From Oscillospiraceae bacterium (GTDB taxonomy: Bacteria > Bacillota > Clostridia > Oscillospirales > Ruminococcaceae): 64,000 nt of DNA. The notes beneath the pieces were generated by a model, which had not been told where the DNA came from, ran no database searches, and saw nothing but the letters and a program-made list of their open reading frames with translations. The position numbers and the translations under genes are program-made. Where the stretch lies: NCBI GenBank assembly GCA_017432285.1, contig JAFRJM010000042.1:1-64000 (forward strand), read 5' to 3'. This document shows positions 4,152 through 52,636 of this stretch, one piece after another; within the stretch, counting starts at the first letter, position 1, and each line of letters starts with the position of its first letter.

Positions 4152-4637
4152 CTAATCGTTGTTCGTATATGTAGTAAGATTCGCTATAAAAACACCGCCA
4201 TCATCCAGATCCAATACTGCATACCTAGGACCTCTGTAATCCATGATTGCGCCGGGATTCAGCACCCATATGCCGTCGATCTTATCGCAGTATGCAGAAT
4301 GAGTATGTCCATAGAGCACTGCATTGCAGTTTCTTTTTCTTGCTTCATCAAGAATATATTGGTATGTTGCTTTAATTGCGAACTTGTGACCATGAGCAAG
4401 CAGGAATCTCCATTCCCCTACAATTAGTTCCTGAACTTCCGGAAGATTCGTAAAACGGTCACAATTCCCACTGACCCCAATCATTGCCCAATCTTCATGG
4501 TGAGACTGAATATACTCATAGTCTCCTGCCCCATCACCGAGAAACACATACCTTTCTGCTTCAGGATGCATTTTACAGATATTCTCAAAAGCTTTTGTCT
4601 TACCGTGAGAGTCAGACATAACAATTATTCTTCTCAT
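4152..4637 (-). CDS. Metallophosphoesterase, YfcE/MJ0936 phosphodiesterase family
   Basis: 161 residues, family length. The two-metal motifs are all present in order: SDSHG (8-12), FLGDG, GNCD, LAHGH and YGHTHS. Such enzymes hydrolyse phosphodiesters such as bis-pNPP or cyclic nucleotides in vitro; the cell substrate is unknown. Its start overlaps the rsmI stop by four bases (ATGA), implying translational coupling, and it ends the holB-side operon. Confidence 0.88.
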   Translation of the reverse strand: MRRIIVMSDSHGKTKAFENICKMHPEAERYVFLGDGAGDYEYIQSHHEDWAMIGVSGNCDRFTNLPEVQELIVGEWRFLLAHGHKFAIKATYQYILDEARKRNCNAVLYGHTHSAYCDKIDGIWVLNPGAIMDYRGPRYAVLDLDDGGVFIANLTTYTNND

Positions 4638-5479
4638 TTTCTTTTCTCCAAAGCTGCTTTATATAGAACACTCTTTGAAAAACCAGTCGACTTAGCAACG
4701 ATTTTAGATGCTTCTGACAAGGATAGACCACTCTCACACATAGAAAGAGCATAATCCACAGCTTCTTCAAAAGAATTCTCAGAAATGTGTTGTTCTTTAG
4801 CACCTTCGACAACAAGGACAAATTCTCCTTTAGGGGGAACTTCTTTAAAATGCTCTACTGCCTCACTGATCGTTGTTCGCCATATCTCTTCGTGTATTTT
4901 TGTCATTTCACGGCAGATGGTGATTTTTCTGTCACCTAGTACTTCCAGAAAATCATCCAGAGTTCGTTGCAATTTATGTGGTGCTTCATAGAAAACCAAT
5001 GTGCGCTTTTCGTTTCGTATCTCTTCAAGCCTGTTTTTTCTTCCTCCTTTAGGTGTAGGAAGGAAGCCTTCAAAACAGAAACGTTCACAATGCAATCCGC
5101 ATACAGAAAGTGCTGAAACTATAGCAGATGGTCCTGAAATAGGTACAACGACAATGCACTCGTCCAAAGCTCTTGATACAAGCACACCACCTGGATCACT
5201 TATGACAGGCGTTCCGGCATCAGAACAAAAAGCGCAGTTCTCGCCCATCTTGATCCTGGATATTATCTGTTCGGCTCTTTCTATTTCGTTGTATTTCTGG
5301 CAACTTACCAAATGTTTTTTTATTTGGAAATGATTAAGAAGCTTACCTGTGACCCTAGTATCTTCTGCTGCGACAAAGTCAACAGACTGCAAAGTCTCGA
5401 TCGCTCTCGGAGATAGATCTCCGAGATTACCAATAGGTGTAGCCACAATATATAGCTTTCCGCTTTCGTTCATAATCAT
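4634..5479 (-). CDS. rsmI: 16S rRNA (cytidine(1402)-2'-O)-methyltransferase
   Basis: 281 residues. It methylates the ribose of C1402 in the decoding centre using SAM. The tetrapyrrole-methylase fold begins with LYIVATPIGNLGDLSPRA, and AAEDTR, CSDAGTPVISDPG and ISGPSA motifs follow, all diagnostic of RsmI. The one-base gap to the upstream trmNF and the four-base overlap with the downstream gene place it in an operon matching the yabB-rsmI order of other Firmicutes. ATG at 5479 has AAAGG four bases upstream; a second ATG at 5473 would be ten bases away and is also possible. Confidence 0.95.
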   Translation of the reverse strand: MIMNESGKLYIVATPIGNLGDLSPRAIETLQSVDFVAAEDTRVTGKLLNHFQIKKHLVSCQKYNEIERAEQIISRIKMGENCAFCSDAGTPVISDPGGVLVSRALDECIVVVPISGPSAIVSALSVCGLHCERFCFEGFLPTPKGGRKNRLEEIRNEKRTLVFYEAPHKLQRTLDDFLEVLGDRKITICREMTKIHEEIWRTTISEAVEHFKEVPPKGEFVLVVEGAKEQHISENSFEEAVDYALSMCESGLSLSEASKIVAKSTGFSKSVLYKAALEKRK

Positions 5480-43828: not shown

Positions 43829-44392
43829 TTAATCCTCAAGGAATGACATGATCTTTTCAGGCTCAGCAGCAAACAATCCTTTGATCGGTAATTCGAGCCC
43901 TCTCTCTTCAAGCATATCTCTAAGGACAGAGATCATAACTCCGTTTCTGCTGACCAGTTCACCTGTTGCATAAACTGACATAGGATCCGGATGTCCTCCC
44001 AGTGACCCATAATACTCTCTGCTGGATCCAGTATAATCAACACCGCAGCTAGGACTTCCATCAATACCGGCAAAACCCAGAACCTCATATCTCTCAGGTG
44101 TAGCCAAATATTCCTCGCACTGGTCAAGTATAGGTTCAAGCAGTTTACGGCAATGATTTCTGAAAAACACATTGTCAAACTGATCACTTACATGACCCCA
44201 GCGACGCGGTCCGTATAATGTGAATTCAGGACACGGCAACTGAACCAGCTGAATTCCCTGAGGTATTGCTTTCATAAGGAACTTCTGTCTCAGAGCTTCT
44301 TCTGCAGCCATGTCGTCATAATCCCACATCACGACTTTCGATGAAATGTTCAAAATGCAGTGCGCTACAAACAGTATCTTTTGTTTTCCCAT
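43829..44392 (-). CDS. TudS/DUF523-related putative desulfidase (CD3072-like)
   Basis: 187 residues. Three conserved cysteines, C12 in AHCILN, C54 in LPCPEFTLYG and C116 in GSPSCGVDYTG, match the pattern that binds a 4Fe-4S cluster in the thiouracil desulfidase family. The substrate here is unknown; thio-bases or other thiolated compounds are plausible. Single gene, divergent from the GTPase-nuclease fusion. Confidence 0.78.
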   Translation of the reverse strand: MGKQKILFVAHCILNISSKVVMWDYDDMAAEEALRQKFLMKAIPQGIQLVQLPCPEFTLYGPRRWGHVSDQFDNVFFRNHCRKLLEPILDQCEEYLATPERYEVLGFAGIDGSPSCGVDYTGSSREYYGSLGGHPDPMSVYATGELVSRNGVMISVLRDMLEERGLELPIKGLFAAEPEKIMSFLED

Positions 44393-44486: not shown

Positions 44487-44533
44487 GAGCTTGAATAATA
44501 TATAATTCTCTTATATTCAAAGGAGTTACGCTC

Positions 44534-47131
44534 GTGAGTCAGACAGCTATTGGTATATTTGCACATGTAGATGCCGGAAAAACTACTTTATGCGAAGCCA
44601 TCCTGTACGTATCCGGAGTGATCAGGAAACTGGGAAGAGTAGATCATAAGGACAGTTGGTTTGATACGTTTTCTCTTGAGAGAAAGCGCGGTATTACTAT
44701 TTTCTCCAAGCAGGCCACATTCACCTATGAAGGTTCTGACTTTACTATCATTGATACCCCAGGACACGTTGATTTCGTAGCAGAAGCTGAGCGCACCATC
44801 CCGATCCTTGATATGGCTGTACTTGTAATAAGCGGCACGGACAGCGTTCAACCCCACACGGAAACACTGTGGAATCTTCTGTCTCGATATCAGATACCGA
44901 CTCTAATTTTCGTAACGAAAATGGATATGTCCCTTAATGATCAGGACTCACTGTTCTCTGATATAAGGAAACGTCTCTCTTCGTCGTGTGTTCTAGTTAA
45001 AGACAGTATCGATTCTGAAGATGTACAGGAAGAGATTGCTTCTCAGGAGCCTCTTCTTATGCAGTATTATCTGGACAATAACTGTTTGGATAGAACCGAT
45101 GTCGTGTCTGCGTTCTACAACCGCTCTTTCTTCCCCGTTATATTCGGTTCCGGACTTCAGGTTGAAGGAATAACAGAATTATTGTCGCTTCTCCATTACT
45201 TCAAAAAGACTTCGCATGAAAATGAACTGTTTGGCGCAAGAGTATACAAAATAACTCATGATATCAAAGGCAACCGTCTGACCCATATCCGTGTTCTAGG
45301 CGGGAGTGTAAAGACAAGAGACACAATTACATATCATTCTGCCGTTGGAAAAGAGATATCTGAGAAGATCACCGGTATCAGATTATACAACAGTGATAAA
45401 TTCACCAGTCTAAACGAAGCCAAAACTTCTGAAGTAGTTACTCTTACCGGTCTTTCTGAAACATATGCCGGTCAAGGCTTGGGAAGCATAGACGATACGC
45501 AATCATATCTTGAACCTGTTCTTCGATACGAGCTTAAACCGCCTGGGGACTTAGACCCTCGCTCTGTTTACCAGACGCTCCTAGAGCTTCAGGAAGAAGA
45601 ACCACAACTGCGGCTAAGCTGGGATTCAGCCAATAATGCTATTTATGTACACCTCATGGGAAATATACAGATCGAGGTAATTAAAAGTCTTATATGGGAT
45701 AAATACCGGATCGATGTTGAAATAGCGGACAGTCAGGTTCTGTATAAAGAAACAATAGCTAGTATCGCTGAAGGAATAGGTCACTTTGAACCGCTTAGAC
45801 ATTATGCCGAAGTTCATCTTCTGCTTGAACCAGGTGAACCGGGTTCAGGTTTGACATTCGGTTCAGTCCTGCCAACAGACCGATTGGGATCCACATGGCA
45901 GAATATGATCCTTTATCATCTTCAGGAGAAGAAACATAAAGGCGTACTTGGAGGTTTTCCGCTTACCGATGTAAAGATCACACTTGTCGCAGGAAGGATA
46001 AGTCTCAAGCATACTGAAGGCGGAGATATACGTGAAGCAGCATTGCGAGCGGTACGGCAAGGACTTATGACCGCCAAAAATGTGCTTCTGGAACCGTTTT
46101 ATAGATATTCCTTAACTGTCCCTACAACTAATGTCGGGCGCGCTGTAAACGATATTCAACTTATGTCCGGTGATTTTGAAATAAATGCCCTTGATAATGG
46201 TACGAGCTTAATCACAGGATTTGCTCCTGTGAGTGAGATGCAATACTACCAGTCTGAAGTTGCTGCGTATACCGGAGGATACGGAAAACTCACATGCGTA
46301 TCCGGCGGTTACAGACCTTGCCACAATCAGGAAGAAATACTTGAATCGATCACTTATGATCCATTAGCTGATACTGCGAATACTCCCAACTCTGTTTTCT
46401 GTAAACAGGGAGCCGGTTTTACTGTTAAATGGAATGAAGTGACCGATTACATGCACATTGAAGCATTCCTGAAACCCAGGACTGAGCAGGTCAAAGAAAA
46501 GCACCGCACTATAGATCTCGATGAGAAGGCTCTTGAAGAACTTATGCTCAGGGAATTCGGTCCGATCCGCAGAAAACAGTACGGAACTCCGTCTGTGATA
46601 CATAATGCAGATAAGGACCCTGATATAGATGAATCATCCAAGAAAAGCCATATCATAATTGATGGTTATAATCTTATGTTCCTTATGACAGAAAGAGGTA
46701 TTATCCCCTCAGGAAGCCTCGATCTGTCCAGATCCGCAATGATAACCCTCCTGTCAAATTACAGCAGTTTTACCGGAATACATATCCTAATAGTATTTGA
46801 TGCATATCAAACTACTCAGACAGAAAATAAAAAGTATTCAGAGAGCAATGTAGATGTTATTTTCACTGAATACGGCGAAACAGCAGACGCGTATATAGAA
46901 AGAACAGCAAATAATCTGGGAAAGAATGATCACGTCCGTGTAGTTTCTTCCGATAATCTTGTTAGATTAGGAGTTTTCCGAAGCGGGATACAGAGAACAT
47001 CCTCTCAATATTTTGTTGAAGAGCTAGTCTCATCCCAGACCGAGATATCGGGTTTGATCGAAAAGCATAACAGTAAAAGCGGACAGAGTTTATCGGAATT
47101 CGTTGACAAGGAGTTATTGGAAAAGTGGTAA
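44534..47131 (+). CDS. Tet(M)/EF-G-like translational GTPase fused to C-terminal NYN (YacP/Rae1-like) nuclease domain
   Basis: 865 residues; Tet(M)-type proteins have about 640. GTPase motifs: AHVDAGKTT (10-18), RGIT (52-55), DTPGH (74-78), and TKMD (128-131) where the usual G4 is NKxD. EF-G-like domains II to V follow (about 230-650) with RAVNDIQ and FAPVSEMQYYQSE as in ribosomal protection proteins. After a charged linker, residues 703-835 form a NYN/PIN-like domain: HIIIDGYNLMF (D710), LIVFDAYQT (D756), ETADAYIER (D785), VVSSDNLVR (D807). The YacP/Rae1 family cuts mRNA in the ribosomal A site in Bacillus. Starts at GTG after AAGGAG. Probably acts on stalled ribosomes rather than giving tetracycline resistance; inference. 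Confidence 0.88.
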   Translation: MSQTAIGIFAHVDAGKTTLCEAILYVSGVIRKLGRVDHKDSWFDTFSLERKRGITIFSKQATFTYEGSDFTIIDTPGHVDFVAEAERTIPILDMAVLVISGTDSVQPHTETLWNLLSRYQIPTLIFVTKMDMSLNDQDSLFSDIRKRLSSSCVLVKDSIDSEDVQEEIASQEPLLMQYYLDNNCLDRTDVVSAFYNRSFFPVIFGSGLQVEGITELLSLLHYFKKTSHENELFGARVYKITHDIKGNRLTHIRVLGGSVKTRDTITYHSAVGKEISEKITGIRLYNSDKFTSLNEAKTSEVVTLTGLSETYAGQGLGSIDDTQSYLEPVLRYELKPPGDLDPRSVYQTLLELQEEEPQLRLSWDSANNAIYVHLMGNIQIEVIKSLIWDKYRIDVEIADSQVLYKETIASIAEGIGHFEPLRHYAEVHLLLEPGEPGSGLTFGSVLPTDRLGSTWQNMILYHLQEKKHKGVLGGFPLTDVKITLVAGRISLKHTEGGDIREAALRAVRQGLMTAKNVLLEPFYRYSLTVPTTNVGRAVNDIQLMSGDFEINALDNGTSLITGFAPVSEMQYYQSEVAAYTGGYGKLTCVSGGYRPCHNQEEILESITYDPLADTANTPNSVFCKQGAGFTVKWNEVTDYMHIEAFLKPRTEQVKEKHRTIDLDEKALEELMLREFGPIRRKQYGTPSVIHNADKDPDIDESSKKSHIIIDGYNLMFLMTERGIIPSGSLDLSRSAMITLLSNYSSFTGIHILIVFDAYQTTQTENKKYSESNVDVIFTEYGETADAYIERTANNLGKNDHVRVVSSDNLVRLGVFRSGIQRTSSQYFVEELVSSQTEISGLIEKHNSKSGQSLSEFVDKELLEKW

Positions 47132-47874
47132 AAGAATCAGAATTGATCAGAAGGATGCGTGATCTGAACGAACGTTCTGAAAGGTCCGCCTCTGTAACTC
47201 ACAGTACATTCCTTACTCCTGCAGAACAATATGAAGCAGAGCAATGGATCAAGCCCCAAAATATCAATGCAGTTTTTATAGGTGGCTCTTCGGATTCTGA
47301 ACGTAAGATCGCTGTATTCTATCCGGTATATATGGATAAAGCGGATATACAGGATAGTGATTTTCTTTCTGCAGTGAAGATCACAGCTGGATTCGGCACA
47401 CCTGGACACCGCGATTATTTGGGCTCAATATTGGGTCTAGGGATAAAACGAGAATGGATCGGGGATATCATAATTGTAGATAACATTGCATATGTGATTT
47501 GTCTCCCGCCATCAAACCTCACTATACTAAGCGATCTGACACATGTAAGCAGATATGGTGTCAGATGCGAAAGCGTGTCAGTTCAGGAAGTTCCTATGCC
47601 GAAAATGAACGTAAAGCATATATCCTTTACAGTTCAGAGCAGGCGATTAGATGCAGTTATAGGGTGTGTTTTCGGGATATCGCGTTCCCGCGCTGCAAAA
47701 CTAATATCTTCCGGCGCCGTCACACTTAACTATCAGGAATGTATGAAGAACGATGCCTATGTTGATGACGGGGATGTTATCTCTGCTCGAGGCTTCGGTA
47801 AAGCCATTCTAATTGGACAGACAGGACAAAGCAGAAAAGGAAGGATATTCCTATCTGCAGACCGATATATTTAG
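47125..47874 (+). CDS. ylmH: YlmH-like S4-domain RNA-binding protein
   Basis: 249 residues. The YlmH core HRDYLGSILGLGIKREWIGDI (95-115) is followed by an S4 domain (about 173-225: RRLDAVIGCVFGISRSRAAKL, then VTLNY). YlmH of Bacillus subtilis binds 50S-peptidyl-tRNA complexes and takes part in ribosome-associated quality control. It normally lies in the divIVA-side ylm cluster; here its GTG start overlaps the GTPase-nuclease gene by seven bases, so the two are translationally coupled. AAGGAG is 11 bases upstream inside the preceding gene. Confidence 0.9.
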   Translation: MVKESELIRRMRDLNERSERSASVTHSTFLTPAEQYEAEQWIKPQNINAVFIGGSSDSERKIAVFYPVYMDKADIQDSDFLSAVKITAGFGTPGHRDYLGSILGLGIKREWIGDIIIVDNIAYVICLPPSNLTILSDLTHVSRYGVRCESVSVQEVPMPKMNVKHISFTVQSRRLDAVIGCVFGISRSRAAKLISSGAVTLNYQECMKNDAYVDDGDVISARGFGKAILIGQTGQSRKGRIFLSADRYI

Positions 47875-47891
47875 TTATTTTTTTACATATT

Positions 47892-47923
47892 AAAGCCCCT
47901 ATACGCACTAGTATAGGGGCTTT
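47892..47923. terminator. Hairpin between ylmH and the 80-aa gene, probable bidirectional terminator
   Basis: AAAGCCCCTATAC-N6-GTATAGGGGCTTT, a perfect 13-pair stem between convergent genes. The T-run on each side is only three bases, so efficiency is uncertain. Confidence 0.7.
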
Positions 47924-48238: not shown

Positions 48239-49762
48239 TCACAGATTCTGTTCCAATATATGATGACAGGCAACAAAATGGTTTTCTCTGACTTCCTGCC
48301 ATTCAGGAGCAACTTTCGTGCAGATATCAGTGCAGTATTTGCATCTTGTATGGAATTTGCAGCCGCTGGGTGGATTTACAGGGCTTGGAATATCTCCCTC
48401 AAGCACCTGCAGTTCCCTGCTCTGATCAACATCGGTTGTTGGAATAGCCCCCAGCAAAGCCTCAGTATACGGATGCAAAGGATGATCAAAGATCTCCTGT
48501 GATTCTGCCAGCTCTACCATGTTACCTAGATACATAACACCAATACGGTCTGAGATGTATTTAACGACAGACAGATCGTGGGTTATAAACAGATAGGTAA
48601 GGTGCTGCTGATCTTTAAGATCACTTAAGAGGTTAATGATCTGAGACTGAATAGAAACGTCCAAAGCGGAAACCGCCTCATCACATACAACAAACTTCGG
48701 GTTCGTTGCAAGGCTTCTTGCAATACCTATACGCTGTCTCTGTCCGCCTGAGAACTGGTGAGGATAACGGTGTACGAAATATGGTGCGAGTCCGCAGTCA
48801 TCCATAACTTTAAGAATCCTGTCCTGCATTCTTGGGCTGTTTTTCTTAAAGAAGTTATGTGCCAACAGTCCTTCTCCAATGATCTGACCAACAGACATAC
48901 GAGGATTCAATGAACTGTATGGATCCTGGAAGATCAACTGCAGATCCTTACGCAGCTGACGCATCTCTTCATTTTTAAGACGGGCAAGGTCTATTCCGTC
49001 ATCTTTCCATTGCTCGTATTTGTCAAATCTTGGATCCGACCTTAAAGGCTCACGCATTTTTTCAAGGACTGCGTGCTGTTCTTTAAGCTGCTCCCTCACC
49101 TTTTCCATCTCAGATTCTATATCTGAAACGGCCTTTTTTGCACTTTCGATCTTAGCTTCGCCTTTAGCGGGATCATCTTTATATGTATACTCGATATCTG
49201 CAAGAATAACATTCTTGTCATCACGCTGCAGACTCAGACTATGAAGCTTTCTGGACAGATCGTTGATCTTTAGATACTGTTCAGTTACAGGTTTAAGGTC
49301 ATCAGCAACGATAAATCCTCCAACGACACTCGTGATGTCATATAGAGCATCATAAGCTTCTTTCTTGACCAAACGCAGTTCTTCTGTCTTCTCTATCTTC
49401 TGCTCATCAGAAAGTTTCTCATATTCTTCGATAAACTTATCCCTTTTTTCTTCAAGCTTAAGAAGCTCTTTGCGCATAGGTTCAAGGTTCTTAATTGTAT
49501 GCCTGACATATTCCGGCGCAAGTTCATCGATAGATTGTCCGTAGTACATGGTACGGCCATCTGTCTGTTTGTAAACCTGAAGGATAGTACGTCCGAGAGT
49601 AGATTTTCCGCAACCGGACTCGCCGACCAAACCGAATGTCTCTCCTTCATAGATGTCAATGGAGATACCGTCATTGGCTTTGTTATATATACCTTTTCCA
49701 AGAGGGAACCACTGCTTAAGATCTCTTATCGAGAGAAGGACTTTTTTCTCATTTGATTGCAT
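48239..49762 (-). CDS. oppF: Oligopeptide ABC transporter ATP-binding protein OppF with large helical insertion
   Basis: 507 residues from ATG 49762 (GGAGGAG upstream); a normal OppF has about 310-330. Walker A GESGCGKST (47-55), Q-loop LIFQDPYSSLNPRM (about 276-289), signature FSGGQRQRIGIARSL, Walker B FVVCDEAVSALD, and the C-terminal oligopeptide Cys motif (CKFHTRC...C...C, often Fe-S) are intact. Between Walker A and the Q-loop lie about 190 extra residues (80-268), highly charged and mostly helical (KLEEKRDKFIEEYEKL; KKAVSDIESEMEKVREQL). It overlaps oppD by 14 bases. Confidence 0.92.
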   Translation of the reverse strand: MQSNEKKVLLSIRDLKQWFPLGKGIYNKANDGISIDIYEGETFGLVGESGCGKSTLGRTILQVYKQTDGRTMYYGQSIDELAPEYVRHTIKNLEPMRKELLKLEEKRDKFIEEYEKLSDEQKIEKTEELRLVKKEAYDALYDITSVVGGFIVADDLKPVTEQYLKINDLSRKLHSLSLQRDDKNVILADIEYTYKDDPAKGEAKIESAKKAVSDIESEMEKVREQLKEQHAVLEKMREPLRSDPRFDKYEQWKDDGIDLARLKNEEMRQLRKDLQLIFQDPYSSLNPRMSVGQIIGEGLLAHNFFKKNSPRMQDRILKVMDDCGLAPYFVHRYPHQFSGGQRQRIGIARSLATNPKFVVCDEAVSALDVSIQSQIINLLSDLKDQQHLTYLFITHDLSVVKYISDRIGVMYLGNMVELAESQEIFDHPLHPYTEALLGAIPTTDVDQSRELQVLEGDIPSPVNPPSGCKFHTRCKYCTDICTKVAPEWQEVRENHFVACHHILEQNL

Positions 49763-50753
49763 TGTGTCTCTCCTCCTTGTTTGGATAATAGCAGCGTATC
49801 TCCTGGACATCAGATATCTTAGTCATCGGAGGTTCTGCTTCAAAACATTTTTCAGTTGCATATTTGCATCGAGGAGCAAACTTGCATCCTTTAGGAAGGT
49901 CTAGAGGATGCGGAACCGCACCAGGAATAGCTTCAAGCCTGGTATGAGCCGGTGTATCCAGTCTAGGAATAGAAACCATCAACCCTTCTGTATATGGATG
50001 GCTGTACTCAGAATCAGGGTTAAACAACACCTTTGACGGAACCTGCTCAACGACCTGACCGCAGTACATAACTGCGACATAGTCTGCCATCTGATTTATT
50101 ACACCAAGGTCGTGTGTAATAAATATAATCGCAGTACCTTTTTCTTTTTTTAGATCATTCATCAGGCGAAGGATCTGTGCCTGAATGGTTACATCCAATG
50201 CAGTTGTAGGCTCGTCAGCAATAAGAAGTTTCGGTTTGCAAGCCAATGCCATTGCAATCATAACACGCTGTCTCATACCGCCGGAAAGCTGGTGAGGATA
50301 CTGTTTAGCAACGATCTCAGGATTAGGAATCTTTACATCGTTGAGCATCTCAATAGCATGCTCAGCAGCCTCTTTTTTGCTCATGTTCTGATGAACCATG
50401 AAGCATTCAGACAGCTGTCTTTCAACAGTAAAAACAGGATTCAAGCTTGTCATAGGTTCCTGGAATATGACAGAGATCTCATTACCTCTGATATGATACA
50501 TTTCCTTATCAGATATCTTCGTGAGGTCCTTACCATCAAATTCGATCTCACCGCTGTCGATATATCCGTTTCCGTCAAGAAGGCGAAGAATGCTCATAGC
50601 AGATACACTCTTCCCTGAACCGGATTCTCCAACTACTCCCAGAGTTTCCCCTTCATTAACAGAATAACTAACGTCGTTAACAGCTTTTACAACTCCACGC
50701 TTTGTCGTGAAATAAGTGTGGAGGTGCTCAAGTTTTAATAATCTTTCAGCCAT
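49749..50753 (-). CDS. oppD: Oligopeptide ABC transporter ATP-binding protein OppD
   Basis: 334 residues, normal OppD length. Walker [11 protein letters not shown]-loop [14 protein letters not shown], signature [15 protein letters not shown], Walker [13 protein letters not shown], and C-terminal CKFAPRC...C cysteine motif. Partner of the extended OppF; together they power peptide import. GGAGGAAAAC precedes the ATG. No insertion here, unlike OppF and OppC. Confidence 0.95.
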
Positions 50754-50767
50754 GTTTTCCTCCTCCC

Positions 50768-52621
50768 TTATCTACCGCTTGATTTCGGGTCAAGTGCATC
50801 ACGCAGGCCGTCGCCGATCAGGTTGATGCAAATGCATGACAATCCGAATATCGCACCGACAAAGACCCAGTTCCACCAGTAGTTCTGGATAGTAACACTA
50901 TTATTGGCTCCGTTCAACATATTTCCCCAAGTAGGTGTTGGAAGCGGAACACCAAATCCAAGGTAAGACAATGTAGACTCAGTCAACATTGAAGTACCAA
51001 ATGCCAATGTAATAGAAACCAAACATACTGACATAACGTTCGGAATAATATGTTTGAAGATGATCTGTCTCTCCTTAACGCCCATCGTTTTCGCAGCAAC
51101 TACATATTCCATCTCACGCTGAGAGAGCATCTGAGCACGTACAAGCCGGCAAAGGCCAGGCCAGGAGAGAATACCAAGGATAACCATGATAATATACATT
51201 CTCTGGCCAACAGAAACGCGCGTTCCCATAACCGCCGAAAGGATCATTGCAAACGGAATAAAGGGCATACTGGAAATGACCTCAGCCACACGCATTATGA
51301 CCATATCGACCCATCCGCCGAAGTATCCCGCAATACCGCCAAGAATAACACCGATGATCATCTCAATGACAACAGAGAGAGCTCCAATAGTCATTGTCAT
51401 CTTACCGCCATTAACAAGACGAGCAAATACATCACGGCCAAGGTTATCAGTTCCCATGATGAACCCTTTAAGGCCCCATGAGTATACTTTGCCTTTATCA
51501 TCAACAGCATAGTTCTGGAAAGAACCGGAGTTGAGTGAAACTATATGCGCATTCTTTACTTCTTCAGGAACATCACACTGACCATATCTGTCACTGCCCC
51601 AACAAATGACGTTTCCGTCAGTTAAGTGTGCAGCAAAGTGATATCTTCCGCCTTCAATATAATCAACAGGAGCATCAAAATGAGGAGGCTTATTCTCGCC
51701 TTTTGTTGCTGCTCCCCAAACAATGACAGACCCGTCTTTTTTGATCGCAGCAACAGTATTGGTTGACGCAACAATATTCAAAACATCAGAAGTAGCTTCT
51801 TCCGGTATTTTAGTAATAGTACTAGAAGAGACAAAACCGGGGTTTACAACACTGCCATCGTCCAAAAGTACAACAAAAGCTGTATTGGTCAATGCCATGT
51901 CCACAATGTGCCCTTGAAGTTCTTTACGAACATCAAGGTCTACAAAGTTGGTATTACCCCAAACAAACAGTTTCTTATCGTCTGTCAAAGCGGCACTGAA
52001 CTGGTTCGAAGCCTGAAGGTCAATAATATTAGAAGTGTGCTGTACGTTATTAGCTAGAAGATCCTGCGGGAGCCTTGTTTGCCCTAATCTGGCATTTCCC
52101 CATGCATACACAACACCTTTATCATCCAAAGCAACGACATGGTCTGCTCCGGCAGCAACTTTTACGATAACAGCTCTTTTTACCTCTTCAGGTACATTGG
52201 CGACATCCACAACCTTGGATATCTTCGTCTTACCCCATGTATATACTTTTCCCTGGAGATCTACTCCTACTGAATAGTTATTACCTACACCTATATCCTT
52301 GACACCGTTATTCTCCAATTCTGAAGGAAGATTCATCATGTCATAACCGGGAGCAATATTGACAAGTGTGCTGTCCTGCTCGCCAAGATCAAGAGTGACA
52401 TAATTAGGAGCAATAAACACGAACAGCATAATCGCAATCAAAAGGAAAAGGCAGATAACTGAAAGAGGCTTTGAGAAGAAGTTGCGCACAACCATTCTCA
52501 GAGGGCTTTGCAGCTGCTCTTCTGCATAGATATCTAATTCCTTATTGGGGAAAAGCACTCTCCTGATCCAACGGAACAGGAAAAATTCTTTTCGGGAAGA
52601 ATTTGCATTTTCATTACTCAT
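50768..52621 (-). CDS. oppC: Oligopeptide ABC transporter permease OppC with inserted RCC1-type repeat domain
   Basis: 617 residues from ATG 52621 (GGAGG eight bases upstream); normal OppC has about 300. Residues 1-75 are the usual cytoplasmic start and first helix. Residues about 106-386 form at least six RCC1-like repeats of 40-50 residues, with recurring A-G-xHxxAL-xDGxVxxWG motifs (SVGVDLQGKVYTWG; HVVALDDKGVVYAWG; FSAALTDDKKLFVWG; HFAAHLTDGNVICWG). The permease core then resumes at GTDNLGRDVFARL with five helices and the EAA loop (YVVAAKTMGVKERQIIFKHIIPN). The repeats replace the short extracytoplasmic loop, so they should face outward, near the binding protein. Confidence 0.93.
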   Translation of the reverse strand: MSNENANSSRKEFFLFRWIRRVLFPNKELDIYAEEQLQSPLRMVVRNFFSKPLSVICLFLLIAIMLFVFIAPNYVTLDLGEQDSTLVNIAPGYDMMNLPSELENNGVKDIGVGNNYSVGVDLQGKVYTWGKTKISKVVDVANVPEEVKRAVIVKVAAGADHVVALDDKGVVYAWGNARLGQTRLPQDLLANNVQHTSNIIDLQASNQFSAALTDDKKLFVWGNTNFVDLDVRKELQGHIVDMALTNTAFVVLLDDGSVVNPGFVSSSTITKIPEEATSDVLNIVASTNTVAAIKKDGSVIVWGAATKGENKPPHFDAPVDYIEGGRYHFAAHLTDGNVICWGSDRYGQCDVPEEVKNAHIVSLNSGSFQNYAVDDKGKVYSWGLKGFIMGTDNLGRDVFARLVNGGKMTMTIGALSVVIEMIIGVILGGIAGYFGGWVDMVIMRVAEVISSMPFIPFAMILSAVMGTRVSVGQRMYIIMVILGILSWPGLCRLVRAQMLSQREMEYVVAAKTMGVKERQIIFKHIIPNVMSVCLVSITLAFGTSMLTESTLSYLGFGVPLPTPTWGNMLNGANNSVTIQNYWWNWVFVGAIFGLSCICINLIGDGLRDALDPKSSGR

Positions 52622-52636
52622 ATCCAATTCCTCCCA

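Follow-up and report, generated by a model that had tools for sequence, protein, structure and literature searches.

A Tet-like translational GTPase fused to a Rae1/YacP-type nuclease appears to stand in for free Rae1 in Clostridia

In a 64,000-nucleotide stretch of genomic DNA from an Oscillospiraceae bacterium (GenBank assembly GCA_017432285.1, contig JAFRJM010000042.1, positions 1 to 64,000; hereafter the window), one gene encodes a translational GTPase related to EF-G and the Tet proteins that continues, in the same chain, into a nuclease domain of the Rae1/YacP type. We found that this fusion and a standalone rae1/yacP gene almost never occur together in one genome and that, judged by gene content and by remnants of decayed yacP genes, the fusion appears to have displaced standalone Rae1. 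Rae1 is an A-site nuclease (PMC6613710) that destabilizes messenger RNAs (mRNAs) in a translation-dependent manner (PMC10100781, PMC6613710). A ribosome-linked nuclease role of the fusion is supported indirectly, since it would stand in for Rae1/YacP and, within the genus of the window, is encoded head-to-tail with ylmH. We lean modestly towards the view that the fusion is a GTPase-carried Rae1/YacP that cuts mRNA on stalled ribosomes.

Apparent displacement of standalone Rae1

The occurrence of the nuclease domain (Pfam NYN_YacP) was surveyed in genomes of the same order (197), class (393) and phylum (299); in the class and phylum samples, the split between fused and standalone forms is known only among the matches listed. 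In the phylum sample the domain was present in 163 genomes (161 above the cut-off) and absent from 136, and a fusion, called when the GTPase body matched at E <= 1e-150, was found in 18. Each of these 18 genomes had exactly one NYN match, while about nine would be expected to carry a second one by chance (18 x 145/281 = 9.3, a simple proportion that ignores phylogeny). In the class sample, 250 genomes had an NYN_YacP match and only five had more than one; among these five, one held an intact second gene (G467), one held remnants, and three held weak partial matches below the cut-off. The standalone nuclease, for its part, was commonly found without any GTPase body.

The place that the standalone gene would occupy was then compared between genomes with and without the fusion. 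The genes flanking yacP are named rlmB and sigH after the Bacillus subtilis operon, and the order rlmB-yacP-sigH was present in six of the seven control genomes without the fusion that were chosen. Co-transcription of rae1 with yacO/rlmB is described in PMC6613710. When this slot was probed with the sigH protein in 30 fusion genomes, rlmB lay beside sigH within the fetched stretch in 13 of them, and in these the slot held an intact yacP once (G467), a decayed yacP five times (G547, G218, G291, G270 and G309; E values from 5e-13 to 3e-4) and no match below 1e-3 seven times. The best of 260 shuffled controls, permuted in 2-base blocks, reached an E value of 0.33. Two of the seven slots without a trace gave weak matches (G481, 0.054; G331, 0.23), and because both values lie below that of the best shuffle, these slots may hold further remnants. 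In the window itself the fusion gene is not beside rlmB; it is flanked by ylmH and by a TudS-like gene in divergent orientation.

The loss of rae1 from fusion genomes might also be plain gene decay, independent of the fusion, as rae1 is often lost: 137 of the 197 same-order genomes and the 136 phylum-sample genomes mentioned above have no NYN domain of either form. We regard this explanation as very unlikely, because both forms were intact in just one of the 250 NYN-positive genomes of the class sample, a second NYN domain occurred in none of the 18 fusion genomes of the phylum sample, and every catalytic residue is kept in the fused domain. If rae1 was indeed displaced, the fusion would either cover the work of Rae1 or make Rae1 unnecessary.

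Domain organization of the fusion protein

The fusion gene is an uninterrupted open reading frame (ORF) of 865 codons from a GTG start to a TAA stop (Table 1). Residues 1-645 make up the EF-G/Tet-like GTPase part, for which the nearest solved structures are TetM (aligned over residues 6-588) and TetO (6-596). Pfam matches above the cut-offs were obtained for GTP_EFTU (residues 5-221, 4.1e-47), EFG_IV (401-515), EFG_C (517-599) and NYN_YacP (707-865, 4.9e-36, 124.7 bits against a cut-off of 24.6). Domains II and III scored below their cut-offs (EF-G_D2, 235-313, 21 against 27; EFG_III, 327-398, 26.6 against 27), and together with the TetM alignment these matches place the domains in the EF-G-like order. 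An earlier note on this DNA, made by a model from the letters and their translations, had described an EF-G/Tet(M)-like GTPase that continues through a linker into an NYN domain, and the Pfam matches, the TetM/TetO and YacP structures and the 865-codon frame bear this out.

The same architecture recurs. In the same-order sample NYN_YacP was present in 60 of the 197 genomes and, besides the window's own, 56 of the 59 loci encoded full-length fusions, the remaining three being truncated by contig ends; of 80 named fusion loci, 73 were near full length. Because full-length fusions recur in this way, the gene is neither a chance ORF nor an assembly artefact. For the comparisons below we used 141 fused rows (the window's own and sets of 56, 73 and 11), which correspond to 139 distinct fusions after removal of two duplicates. 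Alignment A1 contained the window and 15 of the 59 same-order loci, alignment A2 contained the window and 17, and trees were built from columns filled in more than 60% of the rows.

The linker, measured from H641 to D710, is 65-104 residues long in the 141 rows and mostly variable. Domain IV is the best conserved part, with a mean top-residue frequency of 0.80 (G domain, 0.66; NYN core, 0.64), and contact with the decoding centre is therefore probably central to the work of the fusion.

The GTPase body is set apart from Tet proteins

Although TetM and TetO are its closest solved relatives, the GTPase of the fusion belongs, by its tree position and signature motifs, to a separate subfamily rather than to the Tet resistance proteins. 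The tree comprised 159 sequences: five Tet-type comparators formed one clade (support 0.996), and the 141 fused bodies together with 12 unfused ones formed another (0.983). The window's body is 24-29% identical to the five Tet comparators. The unfused bodies came from Clostridia, other Bacillota and Ligilactobacillus, with identities of 36-46%.

Signatures in domain IV and in the C-terminal extension of the body were present in 153 of 153 fused and unfused bodies, in none of the five Tet comparators and not in the one EF-G examined. At the tip of domain IV, Tet(M), Tet(O) and Tet(S) have YSPVSTPADFR, a motif whose proline (Pro509) acts at the tetracycline site (PMC8161019). All 141 fused rows have HT.GGD.R or a close form instead, sharing with Tet the final D and R, and the Tet motif was found in 5/5 Tet comparators, 0/141 fused rows and 0/12 unfused bodies. 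The SVFC signature of the extension was present in its looser form in 141 of 141 fused rows, and 52 of 56 loci matched the stricter written pattern.

The G4 motif of the window (44915-44926) reads TKMD, which at first raised the idea of a dead GTPase. This idea was dropped, since the first position is T in 35, N in 100 and S in 4 of the 139 distinct fusions and K129 and D131 are present in 141/141 rows. SRP GTPases likewise use TKxD. The G1 and G3 motifs of the window's GTPase are like those of EF-G. The T variant occurs in 15 of the 17 ylmH-linked fusions.

Proteins of this make-up have been interpreted differently: Atkinson 2015 (PMC4342817) describes Tet proteins with an acquired YacP-like NYN domain in ten clostridial species and proposes ribonuclease (RNase)-based resistance. 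This view, of a resistance protein that also acts as an RNase, finds support in the kinship to TetM and TetO and in the name that NCBI gives to at least one fusion, that of Agathobacter rectalis. However, the window protein scored 401.8 bits against NCBIfam tet_protect, whose cut-off is 775; the bodies lie outside the Tet clade; the Tet tip motif is absent from all 153 of them; and nearly every NYN-positive genome has one NYN match. Furthermore, among 1221 plasmid records with any match, only two cover 80% of the fusion, and both are large replicons typed as non-mobilizable. Tetracycline resistance was rejected on the tet_protect score, the tree, the domain IV loop and the plasmid distribution, in agreement with the earlier note, and we give the variant with an added RNase mode hardly any credence. 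The distinction matters for resistome surveys: at least one fusion, that of Agathobacter rectalis (L173:5968-8769), bears the label of a tetracycline resistance protein in the NCBI annotation, while the window protein fails the curated Tet cut-offs. Upstream of the Agathobacter rectalis fusion, the opposite strand encodes a BrnT/CopG toxin-antitoxin pair.

The nuclease domain and its C-terminal tail

The C-terminal domain matched the B. subtilis YacP chains 5mq8/5mq9 with E values of 2.1e-16 from the single sequence and 1.2e-39 from a profile, and the 5mq8 alignment spans nearly the whole domain. The NYN/YacP fold, on which the earlier note had made its reading depend, is thus predicted both by the structure match and by the 124.7-bit Pfam match. 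The four acidic residues named in that note, D710, D756, D785 and D807, are at the positions it gave and are invariant in 139/139 distinct fusions and in 28/28 standalone YacP proteins. In a tree, all 141 fused NYN rows split from the 28 standalone proteins with a support of 0.90, and such a single clade is the pattern that one fusion event would give.

The fused and standalone forms differ in their tails. Standalone Rae1 proteins carry 35-40 amino acids beyond the position of window residue 835, usually with a hydrophobic-basic-basic motif; the motif was found in 21/28 standalone proteins compared with 9/141 fused rows in a strict form, and in 26/28 compared with 46/141 in a loose form. A tail shorter than 25 amino acids occurred in none of the 28 standalone proteins and in 88 of the 141 fused rows, and some fusions from other orders kept a longer tail that lacks the motif. 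The window's fusion ends in LLEKW, so its tail stops ahead of the basic doublet. Among B. subtilis suppressors, Rae1 R166P was read as a loss of function (PMC6613710), and if the chain index equals the native numbering, R166 lies two residues beyond the FEKW of 5mq8 that aligns with LLEKW. It therefore looks as though the fused nuclease has lost a segment required by free Rae1, and docking may have passed to the GTPase instead.

Linkage to ylmH

Directly downstream of the fusion lies ylmH, whose product in B. subtilis is a factor of ribosome-associated quality control and binds 50S complexes (PMC11317155). The two genes are adjacent in this order in 7 of 7 same-genus genomes in which both were found; in two further genomes of the genus, G856 has an NYN match near a contig end and no ylmH match, and G858 has neither. 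Among the named loci, ylmH directly follows the fusion in 16 of 80, which may overlap with the same-genus genomes. The ylmH-linked fusions, including the window's, fall into three tree groups with body identities as low as 47%. In L122, by contrast with the 16 other linked loci, the ylmH gene (4406-5155) precedes the fusion and points the opposite way. In a conserved-neighbour search that covered 130 of the 139 loci (nine were dropped by a crude gene caller), ylmH (nine loci, eight of them at +1) was the only family with a constant place at more than a few loci, while two larger families (11 and 10 loci) were spread across many positions. The quality-control factor RqcH (NFACT_N) is present in the genome of the window. 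We also considered that RqcP might be missing from it, but the genome has two short S4 frames, 96 and 74 amino acids long.

Proposed role

Taking the domain layout together with the properties of Rae1, we envisage the following course. The Tet-like body would enter the A site of ribosomes paused with an empty A site, and the modified tip of domain IV would probe the decoding centre. The tethered Rae1 nuclease may cleave the mRNA in the A site or close to it, and the factor would be released upon GTP hydrolysis. The cut mRNA would leave a ribosome in need of rescue, which may be handed over to quality control; in the genus, YlmH, encoded directly downstream, is probably made from the same transcript. 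A more specific version, in which the GTPase delivers the mRNA endonuclease under GTP control, the product passes to YlmH and RqcH, and this machine replaced free Rae1 in many Clostridia, is possible and put forward tentatively. By this arrangement the GTPase might choose the stalled ribosomes for the nuclease, and in this order nearly every nuclease-bearing genome has the fusion.

The substrate could instead be ribosomal RNA (rRNA) or transfer RNA (tRNA), either in maturation or in the cutting of defective ribosomes. A part for NYN domains in the maturation of rRNA and tRNA has been suggested (cited in PMC4342817), and the binding of YlmH to 50S complexes would also suit such a role, but the domain appears to stand in for Rae1, which PMC10100781 and PMC6613710 present as a translation-dependent destabilizer of mRNA. 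We consider action on rRNA or tRNA improbable.

Several observations weigh against a GTPase-carried mRNA nuclease. Domain IV and the NYN domain cannot share the A site at once, so their action would have to be sequential or take place beside the A site, with the cut made ahead of the entry of domain IV or following its departure. The absence of any NYN domain from 137 of 197 same-order genomes implies that the function is dispensable in many. Ten of the 197 same-order genomes encode an unfused body and have no NYN match; completeness is 90% or more for four of these ten, and the GTPase thus probably has a function that does not depend on the nuclease. The tree places the unfused body L171, from Ligilactobacillus, among the fused ones, where inner support is weak; a single fusion event would need a loss or a misplacement to explain it. 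As for displacement, 17 of the 30 probed fusion genomes, including the window's own, showed no rlmB near sigH within the fetched stretch and are uninformative. Finally, a blastp search with the YlmH of the window (E <= 1e-3) detected no ylmH at the 59 same-order fusion loci, and outside the genus 22 genomes that possess both genes did not show them side by side; in four of these the genes lie distant on one contig, and in 18 they lie on different contigs, where adjacency across a contig break is still possible. We therefore gave up a general link between the fusion and ylmH and narrowed it to a few clades.

The unfused bodies also suggest another reading, namely that one chain does two jobs: the GTPase rescues or resets ribosomes by itself, the NYN domain does ordinary Rae1 work, and the fusion serves only co-expression. 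Apart from the ten bodies without any NYN domain, unfused bodies were found in three of the 299 phylum-sample genomes, each with a standalone NYN protein, and all 12 in the tree share the domain IV signature; the long, variable linker would also suit two independent parts. Against it, the fused NYN domains form one clade that mostly lacks the tail motif of the standalone proteins, as expected if the body took over docking, and the linker contains a short conserved motif. We consider the two-job reading rather unlikely and prefer a GTPase-carried Rae1.

Gene neighbourhood

The features of the fusion gene and its surroundings are listed in Table 1. The inverted repeat behind ylmH, which separates it from the convergent gene that follows, is a likely terminator. 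A promoter scan returned fewer sites than shuffled sequences did (7, compared with a mean of 9.5) and was not used.

Table 1. Features of the fusion gene and of the adjacent ylmH gene in the window
Feature	Coordinates	Strand	Remarks
Shine-Dalgarno-like AAGGAG	44520..44525	+	8 nt 5' of the fusion GTG; read from sequence
GTPase-NYN fusion ORF	44534..47131	+	Tet-like translational GTPase with YacP/Rae1-type NYN nuclease; 865 amino acids
GTPase (G) domain	44534..45196	+	Residues 1-221; G1 AHVDAGKTT, G3 DTPGH, G4 TKMD
EF-G domain IV	45734..46081	+	Residues 401-516; best conserved domain of the fusion
Domain IV tip	45998..46033	+	Residues 489-500, ISLKHTEGGDIR; Tet counterpart YSPVSTPADFR
C-terminal extension	46322..46459	+	SVFCxxGAGFxVxW signature; common to unfused relatives, not in the five Tet comparators
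Variable linker	46460..46648	+	Residues 643-705; short conserved motif at 659-680
NYN_YacP nuclease domain	46649..47128	+	Residues 706-865; D710, D756, D785, D807
Shine-Dalgarno-like AAGGAG for ylmH	47108..47113	+	Within the 3' end of the fusion gene; read from sequence
ylmH	47125..47874	+	249 amino acids; overlaps the fusion gene by 7 nt; YlmH_RBD above cut-off, S4 22.3 against 22.8
Inverted repeat AAAGCCCCTATAC-N6-GTATAGGGGCTTT	47892..47923		Perfect 13 bp; read from sequence; not listed by the scan

The divergent upstream gene (43829-44392, minus strand) encodes a predicted TudS-related desulfidase of the CD3072 family (149.2 bits against a cut-off of 130). Beyond ylmH, the gene at 48239-49810 (minus strand) encodes a peptide ATP-binding cassette (ABC) transporter ATPase with an apparent long, charged, coiled-coil-like insertion past Walker A, and the one at 50768-52627 (minus strand) encodes an OppC-type peptide permease with an unusual mix of domains, in which a long run of RCC1-like repeats lies between OppC_N and the permease domain. 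Elsewhere, the unfused GTPase gene L171:4968-6902 is on a Ligilactobacillus salivarius megaplasmid beside a divergent gene for 30S protein S14 (rpsN).

Comparison with known systems

The GTPase-NYN architecture is not new, as it is already published (Atkinson 2015). The interpretation in the earlier note stands in part: the fold as predicted by sequence comparison, the four aspartates and the dismissal of tetracycline resistance are upheld, a ribosome-linked nuclease role has indirect support, and docking on stalled ribosomes with cleavage of mRNA or tRNA there is putative. In the literature searched on the fusion or on Rae1, whose coverage leaves out several key Rae1 papers, we found no report of the fusion besides PMC4342817, and as far as that literature shows, the role proposed here had not been described in this form. 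The clostridial Tet-NYN proteins of Atkinson 2015 likewise combine an EF-G-like GTPase with a YacP-like NYN domain in a single chain, and the window protein belongs among them. In that work they are filed in the Tet subfamily with resistance, whereas here they receive a body clade of their own, and the displacement of rae1 and the linkage to ylmH are added.

Like Tet(M), Tet(O), Tet(Q), Tet(S) and Otr(A)-like proteins, the fusion has an EF-G-like body of similar length with similar G motifs, and its binding to the ribosome is likely similar; it differs from them in its separate clade, its other domain IV tip, its additional C-terminal signature and its nuclease domain. The unfused GTPase bodies share the domain IV and C-terminal signatures with the fusion in 12 of 12 cases but end near residue 645, without the NYN domain. 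With ribosome-associated quality control the fusion is connected by being encoded together with a known factor, ylmH, in a few clades. Finally, B. subtilis Rae1/YacP (5mq8, 5mq9) has the same nuclease domain with all four aspartates. We propose that its ribosome-linked role carries over to the window's domain. Rae1 stands alone as a chain of about 170 amino acids, is co-transcribed with rlmB (yacO) and ends in a basic tail, whereas the window's domain forms the end of a GTPase.

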